Assembly (NCBI GenBank): GCA_017395365.1
Contig: JAFPUN010000021.1
Location: 157,174 to 221,173, forward strand
Reading direction: 5' to 3'
DNA length: 64,000 bases
From: Bacteroidales bacterium
Lineage (GTDB): Bacteria > Bacteroidota > Bacteroidia > Bacteroidales > F082
Of this stretch, positions 43,012-53,851 are shown piece after piece; the stretch's first letter is position 1, and every line of letters begins with the position of its first letter. The position numbers and the translations under genes are program-made. A model generated the notes under the pieces. It was not told the DNA's origin and made no database searches. It worked only from the letters and a program-made list of their open reading frames with translations.

Positions 43012-44487
43012 ATGCGAAAAAAAAGTTTTACGCCTTGCTTGCGCTTCTGCTGGCGGCGGGAGGAGTGACGATGCAAGCGCAAACGGAAGATGATTTCTGG
43101 ATTGAGGTCAACACCAACGGCGAATGGTTTCATCATCCTGTCGGGCCCAGCATCGACACTGTTTATGCGGCATCAATGCACGGTGTCTATCGAAGTGTAG
43201 ACACATGTCAGACTTGGCAGTGTGTGGGGTTTGAGAACCAATCTGTTGATTTTCTATATCTTTCCGAAGACGATGAGTTGTAAGCTTCCATTAATAGTAC
43301 ATCCCCTTTATATAAATGGGATGGATATTCATGGAACCCCTTGGGATATGCTTCCTTTTCGGCACCTCGATCATTCATTAAGGCATCTGACGGCACGCTT
43401 TATGTTGGCGACTTTAGAGGTATAAGTATGTCGGTTGACGGTGGTGATACTTGGTGGACTTCGTGGGACAATCCCCATGAAAGAGTGTCCGACGTTAATG
43501 GTTTTGTTGAACTTGACGATGGAACCCTGTTCGCATGTTTGACTAATTCTAGCGATTATCATATAGGTGTTATCCGTTCAATAGACCATGGGCTTTCTTG
43601 GGAGTCGGTTGGCTTGGATGAGAACTATTTGATTTCTTTCGCAAAAAGTCCAGACGGAACTGTATATGCAGGATGTGATGGATATAATAACGATGAAGAT
43701 GTCGGCGTGTTTAAGACAGAAGATAATGGGGAGACTTGGGAAATGCTGAATGGTGATTTTCGTGTCAATTCCATTGTAATTGATGACAATGACAATGTTT
43801 ACATTGCCCATATCGACTTTCAAGGATTGTATCGTTCTAATGACGGTGGCTATAATTTCGATAACATCAGTTCTGGCATGGATTATATTCAGACAGGCCT
43901 ATCCTTATTGCCCGATGGGCTATATGTTATCATACGAGTATAACGGCTCTGTCTTCTTTGGAAAGATGTTCGTCAGCCGTAAGACAGTTTACACGCCTTT
44001 TGAACTTGAAGTGGTTACAGAGCCAAGTGATGGTGGCGTGGCAAACGGTTCCGGGACATACCTTTTCGGTGAAAGAGCCCATCTGACGGCCACAGCAAAT
44101 GAGAACTACCTGTTTGTCGGCTGGACCAACCAAGACGGCGACACCATTTCAACAGATTCTGATTATGCCCACATGGTTGCGAGAGGAGGACAGATTACGG
44201 CGCATTTTGTAAATGATGATGGCATTGAAGAAACAAGAAAGCATAACATGACGGTTTTTCCTAATCCAGGAAACAATAGCATTACCATCAGTACAGCTTT
44301 GCCCAATGCCCGCGTGGAAATCTACGATTTGACTGGGAAACTGGTTTACAATCAAGAGATTACCGACAATGTCACTTCGATAAATACAGAAAACTGGCCT
44401 TCGGGGATGTATTTTTGGAAGGTGGTTTTCGGCACTTCGACAGGCTCAGTGACTGAAGCTGAATGTGGGAAATGGATTAAGAAATAA
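43012..44487 (+). pseudogene. Broken Asp-box (BNR) surface protein with T9SS sorting domain
   Basis: Three lesions interrupt one continuous protein. First, the ATG at 43012 leads into an A-run (43017-43024, eight bases) that is one base short of the frame giving a signal peptide (FYALLALLLAAGGVTMQAQ). Second, an in-frame TAA stands at 43281. Third, a frameshift occurs near 43930. Between them are five Asp-box repeats of the form S-x-D-x-G-x-(T/S)-W, such as SVDGGDTWW, SIDHGLSWE and TEDNGETWE, as in beta propellers. A bacterial repeat domain (about FGERAHLTATANENYLFVGW) and a T9SS type A sorting domain (VFPNPGNNS to the end) follow. Sequencing error could explain one lesion but hardly three. 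Confidence 0.8.
44305..44427 (+). repeat. Sorting-domain segment, copy 1 of a 123-base duplication
   Basis: This stretch codes for NARVEIYDLTGKLV through WPSGMYFWKVV and is almost identical in bases to 47686-47808, differing at about a dozen positions. The shared end of two otherwise unrelated surface proteins points to recombination or recent duplication of the T9SS sorting cassette. Confidence 0.8.
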
Positions 44488-46299: not shown

Positions 46300-47853
46300 A
46301 TGAAAGTCTTGAAACAAACGGTTCTGATGCTCGCCTTGCTCCTTTCGGCGGCATGGTGCCATGCCCAAGGCGTGGACGGAACGGAAAACGCAAGGAGGGG
46401 TGGAAGAGACCCTTGGCCCGACACAAATTTCCCGTTTTAGGTTGATTCCGTCACCCAACGGCCAGAAGGCTACATGACCGACGCCAACGGCAATGTGGAG
46501 ATTTCCACGCCGCAAGGCTTGGCATGGCTGGTGAGCGAGGTGAACGGGCTGAACGGCTGCGCGCCTGACAATTTCGATGGACGCACCGTGAGAATGACTA
46601 CCGATATCGACTTTGATGCCGTGGCTCAGTTGCGCTTCACGCCCATTGGCAGTCGTGAGCATCCTTTCAAAGGCACTTTCGATGGCGGCGGGCACATCAT
46701 CGACGGGTTATACTTTGGGTTGAACAAAGGAGTAACCAATGAAGACACCAATCGTGACTATGGGCTATTCGGATATGTTTGTCAAGGTGTTGTGAAGGAT
46801 GTTACTGTCAATTCAGGTTGGCTTGACCTTCGCCACCTCGTTTTTGGGCCTGATTTTGAGCAATATTACGATGGAGGCTTGGTCGGCTTTGCCGATTCAT
46901 TGTCGTTGGTGGATGGCTGCGTTGTCAAAACCTTTCTATGTTCCAGCGGCATGGATGTGAACAACCTTGGAGGTGTGGTCGGCCTGAACCGCAATTCCAC
47001 GGTCAGGAACTGCGCTTTTGTTTGTGACTCCGAGATGAGAGCGGGAGACCGTGCAGGAGGTGTCGTCTTCAAGAACCTTTCTGAAGGAGGCTATACTGAT
47101 GCAGAGATTTGCAACTGCTTTTTTTACGGATATTTCTTAGAATGTCTTGGAGGGGCTTATGCGTTGGGTGGAGTGGTTTGTTTTAACGAGACGGACGCAA
47201 AGTCGCAAGCAGGCGGATATAAGGCGATCGTGAAAAACTGCTTTGCTGAGAGCATTTCGCTAATTAGAGCCACTTATGGCGGCTCGATTATTGGCCAAAA
47301 CATGAACGACTGCGTTGTGGAAAACTGCTATGGCCATATTTGGAACAACTACGAAAATGCCGGCTTGTTCGGCCTTACCTTGGGCGAGGTTGCCGAATGT
47401 GCCGAGTTTCTGCCCACAGGCCCCTGCCAGCTCTTGCAAACGGTGGCGGTGGGCGGCATCTCGACCGACGTGATGGTGGATGCCCTCAACGCTTGGGTGG
47501 ACGCGCAGGAATACCCTTCAATTTACAAACGTTGGAAGCCCGTGTATGACCCTTACAACATCCCCATGTTTGAGGACGGCATCGAGGCGGTCGCAGAAAC
47601 TGGTCGGGAAACGGTGGCTGTTTATCCCAATCCGGGCGGCAACGTGCTGAATATCTGTACGGCTGTCACAATGTGGCAGCCCTACAATGCCCGCGTCGAA
47701 ATCTACGATTTGACTGGGAAACTGGTTTGCAAACAAGAGATTACCGACAATGTGACTTCGATAAATGCTGAGGACTGGCCTTCGGGGATGTATTTTTGGA
47801 AGGTGGTTGCTGATGGCAAAGAAATTGAAAGTGGGAAATGGATGAAAGAATAA
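46300..47853 (+). pseudogene. GLUG-motif surface protein with T9SS sorting domain, broken by an in-frame TAG
   Basis: From the ATG at 46300 a signal peptide (MKVLKQTVLMLALLLSAAWCHAQ) leads, after 46 codons, to a TAG at 46438-46440. The same frame then stays open to 47853. Removing that one stop gives a protein of 517 residues with GLUG-type repeats (YGLFGYVCQGVVKDVTVNSGW, then similar units), as found in surface adhesins, and a T9SS type A sorting domain (VYPNPGGNVL to the end). The ATG at 46474 could start a shorter product without a signal peptide, which could not be exported. The lesion could be a C to T change in a CAG codon. Confidence 0.75.
47686..47808 (+). repeat. Sorting-domain segment, copy 2 of a 123-base duplication
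   Basis: This is the partner of 44305-44427, coding for the same NARVEIYDLTGKLV to WPSGMYFWKVV stretch. After the shared part the two genes diverge at once. Confidence 0.8.
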
Positions 47854-47934: not shown

Positions 47935-50900
47935 TTACCCCACAACGATATTAACAATCTTCTTCGGCACGTAGATGACCTTGCGCACCTGCTTGCCCTC
48001 AATCCATTTGGCAGCTTCGGGGGCGGCAAGCACGGCAGCTTGTACCTCTTCGGCGTTCATCGTGACAGGCAATTCCATATTGAAGCGCATTTTGCCATTG
48101 AAACTGATTGGATAGTTGAAGCTGTTCTCCACGGTCTTGCTCTCGTCGTAAACGGGGAACGCAGCGTTCACCACAGAGGTCTCATGACCCAGCAGGTGCC
48201 ACAACTCCTCGGCGATATGCGGAGCGTAAGGCGAAATCATCACCGTCAAAGGCTCAAGGATCTCACGCTTGTTGCACTTCATGTCGGCCAGTTCGTTGAC
48301 GCAAATCATGAAAGCCGAAACAACGGTGTTGAACGAGATGCTCTCAATGCCTTCCTCTTCCTTCTTGATGAGTTTGTGTAGGCTCTTCAGCTCGGGTGCA
48401 GTAGCGGGCTCGTCACTAACGCAGAACTCATTGTTCTCGTTGTGGAACAGCCTCCAGAACTTGCGCACGAAACGGAACGTGCCTTCGATACCCTGCGTAT
48501 CCCAAGGCTTAGATTGCTCCAAGGGACCAAGGAACATCTCATAGAGACGGAGCGTGTCGGCGCCATATTTCTCCACGAGGTCGTCGGGATTCTGAACGTT
48601 GTATTTCGACTTCGACATCTTCTCGATCTCATTGCCACAGACAAAGATATCGTTGCCATCCTTGTCCTTCTCGAAGATGAACTGCGCATCTTTCAGGTCA
48701 TCGCGCCACAGGCGGAACGCCTCCACATCAAGGATGTCGTTGCGCACCATGTTGATGTCCACATGGATCGGGTCGCTGAACTGCTCACGGCCTTCCAGAT
48801 TCTTCGAGATGAAGATAGGAGTGCCATCATAAGCCTCGCCCTCGACAAATGCGGGAACATCCTTCCCTGCGATAAGGTCCTTGATGCGTTGCTCGACAAA
48901 GTCGGTGCCGTTCTTGTAGTCATTCACCACATCGATAATCGGGACAAGCAACAGTTTGTAACCTTTCTCGGCAGCATAATCCTGCCAAGGCTCGGCCACC
49001 TTTTCGAGGTTGCCCATGCGGTTGATTTCGATAAGGATACCTTTCTCGGGGCAGAAGAAGTCGAAACGACGGCGGCCATCCTTGAAGTCCTTTTCGAACT
49101 TCACGCCCAACTTGTTGTCCTTGATGAGACGCCAAACGCCGTATTCGCATAGCTTCTCCATGTTGGCGCGATAGGCAAAGCTCGAACGGCCTTGGATCAT
49201 ACCTTGGTTGATCATCCTTTGGAAAGGCTCGTCTTTGCATGACAAACCAATATCAAACAAGAACTTGCACCAGAAGCGGCTGTAGATCAAGTGGCCGGTG
49301 GCGTGTTCGGCACCACCGATATATAAGTCGACGTTTTGCCAATAGTCGTTGGCTTCGCGGCTGAAGTATTCCTTGTCGTTGTGCGGGTCTTCGTAGCGGA
49401 AATAATAGCCGCTCGAACCGGCAAAGCCCGGCATGGTGTTGGTCTCGATGGGATAGCCTTCTTCTGTGACCCAGTTCTTGGCGCGGGCCAAAGGAGGCTC
49501 TCCCGTCTCGGTAGGCTTGTATTCGCTGATGGCAGGCAATTCAAGCGGCAGTTTCGACTCGTCCATGGCGTAAGGCATGCCGTCCTTGTAGTAAATCGGG
49601 AATGGCTCACCCCAATAACGCTGGCGACTGAAGATGGCATCGCGCAGGCGGTAGTTGGTCTTGCCCGTGCCAACGCCAAGTTTCTCCAGTTCTTCAATCA
49701 TGCGCTCAATGGCTTTCTTGACGGTCAGGCCGTTGAGGAAGCCAGAGTTGACCAGCTCGCCGTCCTTGGCGTCGAAGCTCTCCTCCCATGTGGCGGGGTC
49801 GGTGGCTTCTGTGCCAGGTTTCTTCACCACTTGGATGATAGGCAGGTTGAAATGACGGGCAAAGGCGAAGTCGCGGCTGTCGTGGGCAGGCACGGCCATG
49901 ATGGCGCCCGTACCATAGCCCATCAGCACGTAATCGGCAATCCAAATGGGCAACTTGGCACCCGTAATGGGGTTGATGCCGTAGGCACCCGTGAAGGCAC
50001 CGCTCACCTTGCGGACTTCAGCCATACGCTCACGTTCGCTACGGTTCTTGGTGCGGGTGATGTATTCCTCCACCTCGGTGCGTTGCTCAGGCGTAGTGAT
50101 TTCCTTTACCAGTTCATGTTCAGGAGCTAGCACCATGAAAGTCGTGCCAAACAAAGTATCGGCACGAGTGGTGAACACCTCTAAATCGATATCTTTACCG
50201 TCAACTTTGAAGATAACGGAAGCGCCCATGGATTTGCCTATCCAGTTGCGCTGCAGGTCTTTCACCGACTCGCTCCAATCCACGGTCTCGAGGCCTTGAA
50301 GCAGACGGTCGGCGTAGGCAGTGATGCGCAGTTGCCACTGCTTCATGGACTTGCGCTCCACGGGGAAGCCACCACGCACCGAGAGGCCGTCGGCCACCTC
50401 GTCGTTGGCGAGCACCGTACCCAAGCCCGGGCACCAGTTCACCATGGCCTCAGCTTGGTAAGCCAAGCGATAGTTCATCAGCACCTCTTGTTGTTCTTTC
50501 TCACTCATCGCCTTCCACTCGGCAGCGGTGAAGCTCAGCGGCTTGCTTTCAGCAACATTGAGGCCTTCCGTACCTTTTTCCTCGAAACGGGCAATCAGCT
50601 TGCTGATGGGCTGGGCTTTCTGGCAGCCGTTGCAGTAGAACGAGTTGAACAGTTGGAGGAAGGTCCATTGCGTCCACTTATAGTAGCCAGGCTCGCAAGT
50701 GCGCACCTCGCGATCCCAGTCGTAGCAGAAACCGATCTTGTCCATCTGTTCGCGGTAGCGGTTGATGTTCTTCTCGGTCGTCACAGCGGGGTGTGTACCG
50801 GTTTGGATGGCATATTGTTCAGCGGGCAGACCGTAGGCGTCGTAACCCATCGGATGCAAAACGTTGAAGCCTTTCAGCCTTTTATATCTTGCATAAATAT

Positions 50901-51075
50901 CCGAGGCGATATAGCCCAGCGGATGTCCCACGTGCAAGCCAGCTCCTGAAGGATACGGGAACATATCCAGGACATAGAATTTCGGCTTACTGTGGTCAAT
51001 ATCAACCTTATAGATTTTGTTGTCGCGCCAGTATTGCTGCCACTTCTTCTCGATTTCGGTAAAATTGTAATCCAT
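47935..51075 (-). CDS. leuS: Leucyl-tRNA synthetase with a nuclease-like insertion
   Basis: This class I synthetase charges tRNA-Leu. The HIGH-type motif is in [15 protein letters not shown] (about 42-56), the editing domain has the threonine-rich TTRADTLFG (about 302-310), and the KMSKS loop is EKMSKSKYN (about 818-826). At 1046 residues it is about 100 longer than usual Bacteroidales LeuRS. The excess lies at about 637-750 (bases 48826-49167), between QGRSSFAYR and the [16 protein letters not shown] strands. That insert (KLGVKF, then [15 protein letters not shown], then [12 protein letters not shown]) has the layout of a DUF559/Vsr-type PD-(D/E)XK domain with Asp 672, Glu 683 and Asn 685 at the expected places. 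Whether it is active is unknown. Confidence 0.95.
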
Positions 51076-51120: not shown

Positions 51121-51237
51121 GGGAAAATTTGGGATTGGTGAAGTGAAAAAACGCTTCGTTTATCACGACTATATCACGAATTATGACACGAAATCGTGTT
51201 TTTTTCTCAAAAAACGCTCTACCAAAGAAAAAAGCTG

Positions 51238-51245
51238 TATATTTG
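51238..51245 (+). promoter_or_regulatory. Promoter -7 element of the NYN gene leader
   Basis: TATATTTG followed by C, an exact TAnnTTTG match. It lies within the long frame that starts at 51143 and shows that the first 64 codons of that frame are not translated. Confidence 0.7.
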
Positions 51246-51251
51246 CATCAG

Positions 51252-51316
51252 ATTTATTTAAGCACCGCCATTCTTTCTTGAATGGAAATGGCCGTCCTCG
51301 GACGGCTTTCTTTTTA
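51252..51316 (+). ncRNA. Structured leader with attenuator before the NYN gene
   Basis: Two hairpins follow the promoter: CCATTC with GAATGG (51268-51285) and GCCGTC with GACGGC around a CTCG loop (51291-51306). The second is followed by TTTCTTTTT, an intrinsic terminator 20 bases before the NYN ATG. Transcription may end here under some conditions, either as control of the NYN gene or as a short RNA of about 65 bases. Confidence 0.55.
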
Positions 51317-51334
51317 ATCAGACATCTATCACCT

Positions 51335-51775
51335 ATGGCACAACGAGTTACATTCTACATCGATGGCTTTAATTTCTATTATGGACTGCGCCGCACCAAA
51401 CACAGCGAGCCACAATGGGACTACTCCATTTCACGACCCGAAGAGAAGAAGACTGATGTAAACATATCTGTCAGAATGATAGGTGATTGCGTTTTGAATG
51501 CCACAGATTCCATCGTTTTAGTCAGTGCAGACAGCGACCTAGTGCCACCTTTGGAATTCATTCAACGCCATTATCCTAAGAAACGAATAAAAGTGTACTT
51601 CCCTCCTTCAAACTTCAGCTGCGACCTGAAAGATAATTTGATACACCACAGCAGCAAGCCTATTTTGATGCACAAGAACGAGCGGCGTTTCCGTGATGCC
51701 ATTATGCCTGATGTAGTGACAGACGGTATAAAAAGATACGAAATTCCACCAAAGTGGAAGAACGAAAATCCATAA
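51335..51775 (+). CDS. NYN (PIN-like) domain protein, apparently shortened
   Basis: The product has 146 residues from MAQRVTFYIDGFNFYYGLR, the N-terminal strand of NYN domains with the first catalytic Asp. The later conserved block EEKKTDVNISVRMIGDC and LVSADSDLVPPLE supplies the other acidic residues of a putative ribonuclease site. In full-length relatives about 60-70 residues separate these two blocks; here only about 20 do. An internal in-frame deletion is therefore likely, and the nuclease fold may be damaged. The promoter at 51238-51245 and the terminator in the leader support the ATG at 51335. Confidence 0.75.
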   Translation: MAQRVTFYIDGFNFYYGLRRTKHSEPQWDYSISRPEEKKTDVNISVRMIGDCVLNATDSIVLVSADSDLVPPLEFIQRHYPKKRIKVYFPPSNFSCDLKDNLIHHSSKPILMHKNERRFRDAIMPDVVTDGIKRYEIPPKWKNENP

Positions 51776-53194: not shown

Positions 53195-53851
53195 ATGGAA
53201 ACTCTGAAACCCACTAAAGTCACCCCAGATGATGTGCAAACAGGAAACATCGAAAACATCAAGAGTGTAATTTATGAAATTCGCGGCCAAAAGGTAATGC
53301 TAGACCGCGACCTTGCCAGTATTTACGGGGTAGAGACACGAGCTCTCAACCAAGCAGTCAAACGTAATGCAGAGCGATTCCCAGAGGATTTCATGTTCAA
53401 ATTGTCTAAAGAGGAATGGATTGAAATCGAGAGGATTAGCAACATGTCGTCACAAAATGTGATGACATCGCCACAAAAACGTCCCAAGTCAGCACCTCCT
53501 TATGTATTCACCGAACATGGTGCTGTGATGCTTGCCTCCGTATTACACAGCCCTTGTGCCATACAAATGAGCGTGATGGTGACAAGGGCGTTTATTGCAA
53601 TGCGAAAGGCTATAGCAACAATGCTGTCAGTCGACCTAAAAATGGAGCAACTTTCTCACAAAGTCGATCAGTTGAACGCCTATATCGAGGAAATCCTACA
53701 CGACCAAAATGACATCAATGAGCAGCAGGAACAGACCAACTTGGAAATTGCTATACAAATAGAAGCCCTCAATGATGCACTCGACCAATTAAGAGAAACC
53801 AAAGCCCAACCCCGCAAGCGGATTGGTTACAAACCTGAAGAAGAATCTTAA
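53195..53851 (+). CDS. ORF6N domain DNA-binding protein
   Basis: This 218-residue protein has an ORF6N domain at about 20-110 ([34 protein letters not shown], then [17 protein letters not shown] and [15 protein letters not shown]). A coiled-coil C-terminus follows. ORF6N proteins are usually phage-derived regulators or anti-repressors, but similar genes are spread through Bacteroidales chromosomes. It stands alone, and its stop overlaps that of the convergent ruvB by a few bases. Confidence 0.9.

Follow-up and report, generated by a model that had tools for sequence, protein, structure and literature searches.

What is a nuclease-like fold doing inside a leucyl-tRNA synthetase (LeuRS)? The question is raised by the leuS gene of a Bacteroidales gut bacterium (assembly GCA_017395365.1), which lies in a 64,000-nucleotide stretch of contig JAFPUN010000021.1 (positions 157,174 to 221,173 of the forward strand), referred to here in full as the window; positions below count from its first letter. 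An original prediction, made by reading the sequence alone, placed a DUF559/Vsr-like nuclease domain at 48826-49167, between two catalytic-domain segments of the enzyme. The span proved nearly exact, the extra stretch covering 48820-49167, and the structural elements occur in the order described; the extra segment is real, but its site lies inside the leucine-specific (LS) domain. From its homology and predicted structure, the insert is a DUF559-derived PD-(D/E)XK domain that has become part of LeuRS.

The extra segment of LeuRS and its predicted fold

The features are given below, with conservation in 52 sequences of the window's genus (the genus set) and in an alignment of 33 inserts (the diverse alignment), which were chosen for diversity and are not a random draw.

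47935..51075, minus strand: leuS, leucyl-tRNA synthetase of 1046 aa, a single open frame with the Pfam editing domain, tRNA-synt_1 and Anticodon_1; PDB LeuRS match at E 6.4e-199
49687..50250, minus strand: CP1 editing domain, residues 276-463 (PF13603)
48820..49167, minus strand: extra segment in the LS domain, residues 637-752, not in the compact LS regions of relatives
48871..49161, minus strand: predicted PD-(D/E)XK (DUF559-like) domain core, residues 639-735 (AlphaFold2, 150-residue model; its elements recur in the full-length model)
49144..49146, minus strand: Glu644, conserved acid in helix 1 (genus set 52/52; diverse alignment 32/33)
49060..49062, minus strand: Asp672, first acid of the motif (genus set 52/52; diverse alignment 31/33)
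49027..49029, minus strand: Glu683, second acid of the motif (genus set 52/52; diverse alignment 32 Glu and 1 Asp of 33)
49021..49023, minus strand: Asn685, where the motif has Lys (genus set 38 Asn and 14 Lys; diverse alignment Lys in 24/33)
48607..48621, minus strand: KMSKS loop, residues 819-823, bounding the LS region downstream (read from the sequence)

The window LeuRS has the architecture of a bacterial LeuRS, with catalytic, CP1 editing and anticodon-binding domains and a KMSKS loop. Its best PDB match, the Thermus thermophilus enzyme, aligns to residues 3-143, 203-633 and 820-1045; the unmatched piece ahead of KMSKS (residues 634-819) is the LS region, and residues 637-752 stand where a typical compact LeuRS has a short beta-hairpin turn, IKGTNT. 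Among 47 Bacteroidales LeuRS loci (the 30 best matches plus hand-picked loci), 34 have a compact LS region (NQG to KMSKS, 78-79 residues); enzymes with the insert have a region of roughly 190-210 residues, counting through the end of KMSKS. Of 129 Bacteroidales genomes drawn evenly, 126 gave a LeuRS match, and only 18 of these had a frame of at least 1000 aa. Because the LS domain is compact in most relatives compared, we reject the possibility that the segment is simply the ordinary LS domain. The position, between catalytic core and KMSKS, is that of the bacterial LS domain; known LS domains are short, whereas the hairpin in the window LeuRS bears a whole second fold.

An AlphaFold2 model of 150 residues (pLDDT 90) predicts a helix at 15-27, strands at 37-42, 45-51 and 56-61, a helix at 63-80, a strand at 83-88, and helices at 89-98 and 102-111, and the same elements of the insert are seen in a full-length LeuRS model (pLDDT 76.4, pTM 0.65). 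The alpha-beta-beta-beta-alpha-beta core of the PD-(D/E)XK fold is recognizable from the predicted model and its matches to solved members, with no sign of a different fold, and the predicted fold is of the Vsr type. Alignment of the model with VIA-align placed 3HRL, I-Bth0305I and Vsr among the best matches, the second-best structural match being a homing endonuclease catalytic domain; mitoribosome chains, presumably RAP proteins, were also among the structural matches. With Foldseek, 3HRL was the sole match passing E 0.001, and Vsr was found at E 1.9.

Profile comparisons point the same way. A profile built from the 33 inserts matches 3HRL (E 3.3e-9), and DUF559 (PF04480) matches 28 of the 33 at E <= 0.1, with a best E of 7.6e-12. 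The window insert alone gives E 0.006-0.007 (16.6-16.9 bits), under the Pfam gathering cut-off of 20.6, and so the anticipated profile similarity is clear for the insert family but weak for the window copy. The assignment to a DUF559/Vsr-like nuclease domain is supported by the family profile and the predicted fold together.

Distribution, inheritance and loss of the insert

Among 99 genomes of the genus, a LeuRS match was found in 90 (73 with the insert, 16 without and one uninformative) and none in nine. Two of the 73 carriers (G088 and G095) have the insert only as contig-edge fragments, and the frame is broken in two (a TGA in G091 and a frame change in G095), perhaps through assembly errors. 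The named records with the insert are nearly all Bacteroidales or Bacteroidia metagenome-assembled genomes, many titled ruminant gut, and include bacterium F082, Candidatus Limimorpha equi and HGW-Bacteroidetes-1; of 116 relatives, 80 loci were kept, and in 79 of these the insert is in frame after NQGMIQGR, the remaining one (L108) being a short contig-edge frame. The 73 genus genomes and the named records together rule out an assembly artefact. One Bacteroidales LeuRS insert, at 95% identity, is on a contig titled Methanobrevibacter sp. (L109), probably through mis-binning.

When 393 Bacteroidales genomes were searched with a profile, LS-type inserts were found in five members of the genus and in 25 genomes from 15 other families. 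We read 24 of these 25 non-genus inserts as sequence, from 14 families, and all are at the same LeuRS site; the LS-type insert from family f110 is a fragment at the end of a contig. Apart from the window's own genome, the matches listed for 395 genomes across the phylum include no full-length LS-type match; as just five other Bacteroidales are in that sample, this search speaks only for spread outside the order. Carriage by viruses was rejected, a whole-LeuRS scan of viral_contigs having yielded no relatives among six candidate stretches.

In a tree with 57 other DUF559 domains, some of whose rows called standalone lie in longer frames, 23 LS inserts form one clade (support 100/100), and a single capture is thus the simplest account. 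Distances in the insert and core trees agree (Spearman 0.867 for 30 rows, 0 of 1000 permutations; 0.815 over the 21 rows that are not of the window's genus); L271, in which the LeuRS was read as divided between two frames, was left out of this comparison. Presence of the insert is nonetheless patchy, with 18 changes on a quick 82-row LeuRS tree, 14 of them forced by well-supported branches; that tree scored L271 as insert-bearing, and its piece there lacks the insert columns. Within the genus, on a tree that excludes L037, L055, L059, L081, L082 and L102 (duplicate, fragments and swaps), insert-free LeuRS are nested among insert-bearing ones, with five changes, three of them forced. The insert-type downstream flank is retained in 14 of the 16 insert-free genus LeuRS, as expected from deletion; L081 and L082 (genomes G104 and G094) have a compact LS region and are elsewhere 84-100% identical to the window enzyme per 50-residue block, as a local allele swap would leave them.

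The inserts are under purifying selection. Median dN/dS is 0.078 for the insert and 0.046 for the core, and none of 221 insert pairs (of 1326 possible; dS 0.05-1.0 for the core and 0.05-1.5 for the insert) is at or above 1. Of the roles raised in the original prediction (binding tRNA, sensing its state, or being a domesticated invader), the last fits these selection and inheritance data. Recent arrival with inverted-repeat ends was ruled out: no inverted repeats of at least 12 bp were found around the 33 LS inserts (longest 10 bp), and the inserts form their separate clade.

Canonical DUF559 domains in frame in other genes

Canonical DUF559 domains are also found in frame within other genes, and the copy numbers here are lower bounds among the matches listed. 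At least nine Bacteroidales LeuRS (L026, L031, L215, L220, L223, L226, L227, L228 and L229) carry one, with ExDG..H kept, just upstream of the TTRxDT motif of the CP1 editing domain (TPRPDT in L229), and two more LeuRS (L273 and L274) probably do so too, judged from a matching DUF559 hit. Four further class I synthetases (L216, L217, L222 and L225), which from their motifs we take to be IleRS, have a canonical domain in frame, as does a ValRS (L224) with the Pfam ValRS C-terminal domain; L272, L028 and L032 are ValRS hosts by likeness to L224, the last two from the window's genus. Restriction-modification and other genes are hosts as well, and a Pfam scan of ten host proteins found DUF559 plus host domains in all ten. 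In genome G174 (L257/L293), a single LeuRS frame of 1201 aa combines the LS insert with a canonical DUF559 domain in CP1.

Of 23 canonical copies, 22 were searched for inverted repeats, with five shuffles each as a control applied to the canonical copies only. Nine have the domain between exact inverted repeats of 12-32 bp, each longer than in its five shuffles, and no 12-bp repeat was found in the other 13; several repeat-flanked copies sit in synthetases, and L222 has a long perfect pair. By these sequence features the canonical copies look like mobile in-frame elements, and they may be the sort of source from which the LS insert came. In the excerpts of PMC10969869, Rickettsia palindromic elements are described as palindromic DNA of about 150 bp inserted in frame into protein genes; the canonical DUF559 copies appear to share this in-frame habit, whereas the LS inserts are without inverted repeats, and the word nuclease is absent from the text of PMC10969869.

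We note that three Bacteroidales LeuRS (L227, L229 and L290) have unrelated-looking LS regions of about 120-150 aa. From such sequences the LS region seems to be a hotspot of change.

Active-site residues and possible roles

The LS domain is a place where an added fold would be well positioned to touch tRNA. In the excerpts of PMC5059758, it shifts between an editing and an aminoacylation state, supports the KMSKS loop and steers tRNA to the catalytic site, and is important for tRNA binding yet not absolutely required. We moderately favour, as the best explanation of the data as a whole, that a PD-(D/E)XK domain of the DUF559/Vsr group was captured once into the LS beta-hairpin of a Bacteroidales ancestor's LeuRS, was then inherited mainly along with LeuRS, and was repeatedly lost or swapped out. 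Given that the LS domain supports the KMSKS loop and steers tRNA into the active site, we infer that the domain would be an accessory nucleic-acid-binding module, most likely contacting tRNA(Leu) in the aminoacylation/editing cycle.

Several observations weigh against this account. The full-length model is too weak near the active site to fix the orientation of the domain relative to tRNA, and the window domain has no overall basic character (pI 6.5; 19 Lys plus Arg and 19 Asp plus Glu), a mild argument against tRNA binding by simple electrostatics. The 16 genus genomes without the insert also count here, and the insert is dispensable, since L081 and L082 do without it. In addition, four inserts of the window's own genus cluster with family f82 (90/88, not starred), whereas the core tree unites the genus, so inheritance may not be purely vertical.

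Would the domain cut? The three acids Glu644, Asp672 and Glu683 are invariant in the genus set, and 12 of the 14 other families represented retain all of them; in the diverse alignment they are among the eight of 106 insert columns with conservation of 90% or more (chance 2.9e-4). Such conservation appears to exceed what folding alone would readily demand. At residue 685 the genus set has only Asn or Lys, with at least four changes on the LeuRS tree, and the E-D-(D/E)-K set is complete in 24 of the 33 diverse inserts, with Lys in 17 of the 22 rows outside the genus. The original reading of the window residues (Asp and Glu kept, with Asn following) holds for Asp672, Glu683 and Asn685, but most diverse homologues carry Lys at that last position. 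The D...(D/E)xK active site is thus incomplete in the window, as it is in L293 (Arg for Lys), L267 (Ser) and L184 (Asn), and in L270 and L271, which are without the Asp as well. The LS inserts also depart from canonical DUF559 (PF04480; solved relative 3HRL), from which they are separate as a clade and in lying inside LeuRS: ExDG is replaced by ExK (24/33) or ExN (EIN in the window), the following His is missing, and the window insert has no His from the motif up to the following strand. Excerpts of PMC11879112 give the catalytic His of Vsr as paired with Asp (His 69/Asp 51); the catalytic His of Vsr and I-Bth0305I is not present in the LS insert, nor is a mismatch-repair or homing context. 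Since Asn replaces the motif Lys and the DUF559/Vsr His is missing, the domain in the window lineage is probably not a working nuclease, and a nuclease is possible in the E-D-ExK lineages. A non-cutting use of the fold has a parallel in FASTKD4, whose Vsr-like domain is, in the excerpts of PMC11879112, thought to bind RNA and reported as non-cleaving; the likeness is of a Vsr-type fold applied to RNA, and as RAP/FASTK proteins are eukaryotic organelle proteins and no synthetase, it serves as a working analogy only.

The domain might instead be an inert, tolerated passenger, with selection merely keeping its fold intact and unobtrusive. Repeated loss, allele swaps and degenerate copies (L270, L271 and perhaps L305 among them) are what a passenger would show, but folding selection does not readily account for three acids that are invariant in the genus and among the best-conserved columns, and the domain has been retained in many families; we consider this reading unlikely.

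A working metal-dependent nuclease, cutting tRNA(Leu) or another nucleic acid in the E-D-ExK lineages and having lost its Lys in the window lineage, would explain the conserved acids, the frequent complete motif and the restriction of residue 685 to Lys or Asn, and might serve tRNA quality control, a stress response or an anti-phage response. The window and 37 others of the genus set have Asn, however, motif residues are lost or replaced in the five copies named above, the canonical His is missing, and an essential enzyme fused to an unregulated nuclease would presumably be costly; we think such activity distinctly unlikely. A more elaborate version, in which Bacteroidales LeuRS is bifunctional, the nuclease on its tRNA-guiding arm destroying wrong, damaged or foreign tRNA(Leu) at charging, with some lineages, including that of the window, having swapped Lys for Asn and kept binding only, is in our view quite improbable.

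A selfish homing module, spreading by cleavage of insert-free leuS alleles, would suit the homing endonuclease match, the patchy spread and the related DUF559 domains in frame within many genes, but it is very improbable, given that the insert tree largely matches the core tree, that the clear local swap (L081 and L082) runs toward the insert-free form, and that LS inserts are without inverted repeats of at least 12 bp.

Elsewhere in the window, an NYN-domain protein (51143-51775, plus strand; E 3.3e-7) is encoded divergently from leuS; linkage to this gene was rejected, as its motif was found upstream of leuS in none of 67 related loci with at least 500 bases there. An ORF6N-domain protein lies at 53195-53851 (plus strand; E 1.5e-33), and the proteins at 43780-44487 and 46474-47853 (plus strand) end in very similar C-terminal segments, which look like type IX secretion sorting tails.

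Synthetases often acquire lineage-specific domains. We found no description, in searches of openly licensed papers, of a nuclease-fold domain on the tRNA-guiding arm of LeuRS that keeps its three acids across most of the other families, and the presence of this long-inherited domain hints at unstudied tRNA handling. L081 and L082, set beside the window enzyme, are a natural pair with and without the domain for probing LS-domain function. Should one of the homologues prove to cut, a single enzyme would charge tRNA and also have a centre for destroying it, and the in-frame copies of related DUF559 domains hint at a route that nuclease domains take repeatedly into essential enzymes.
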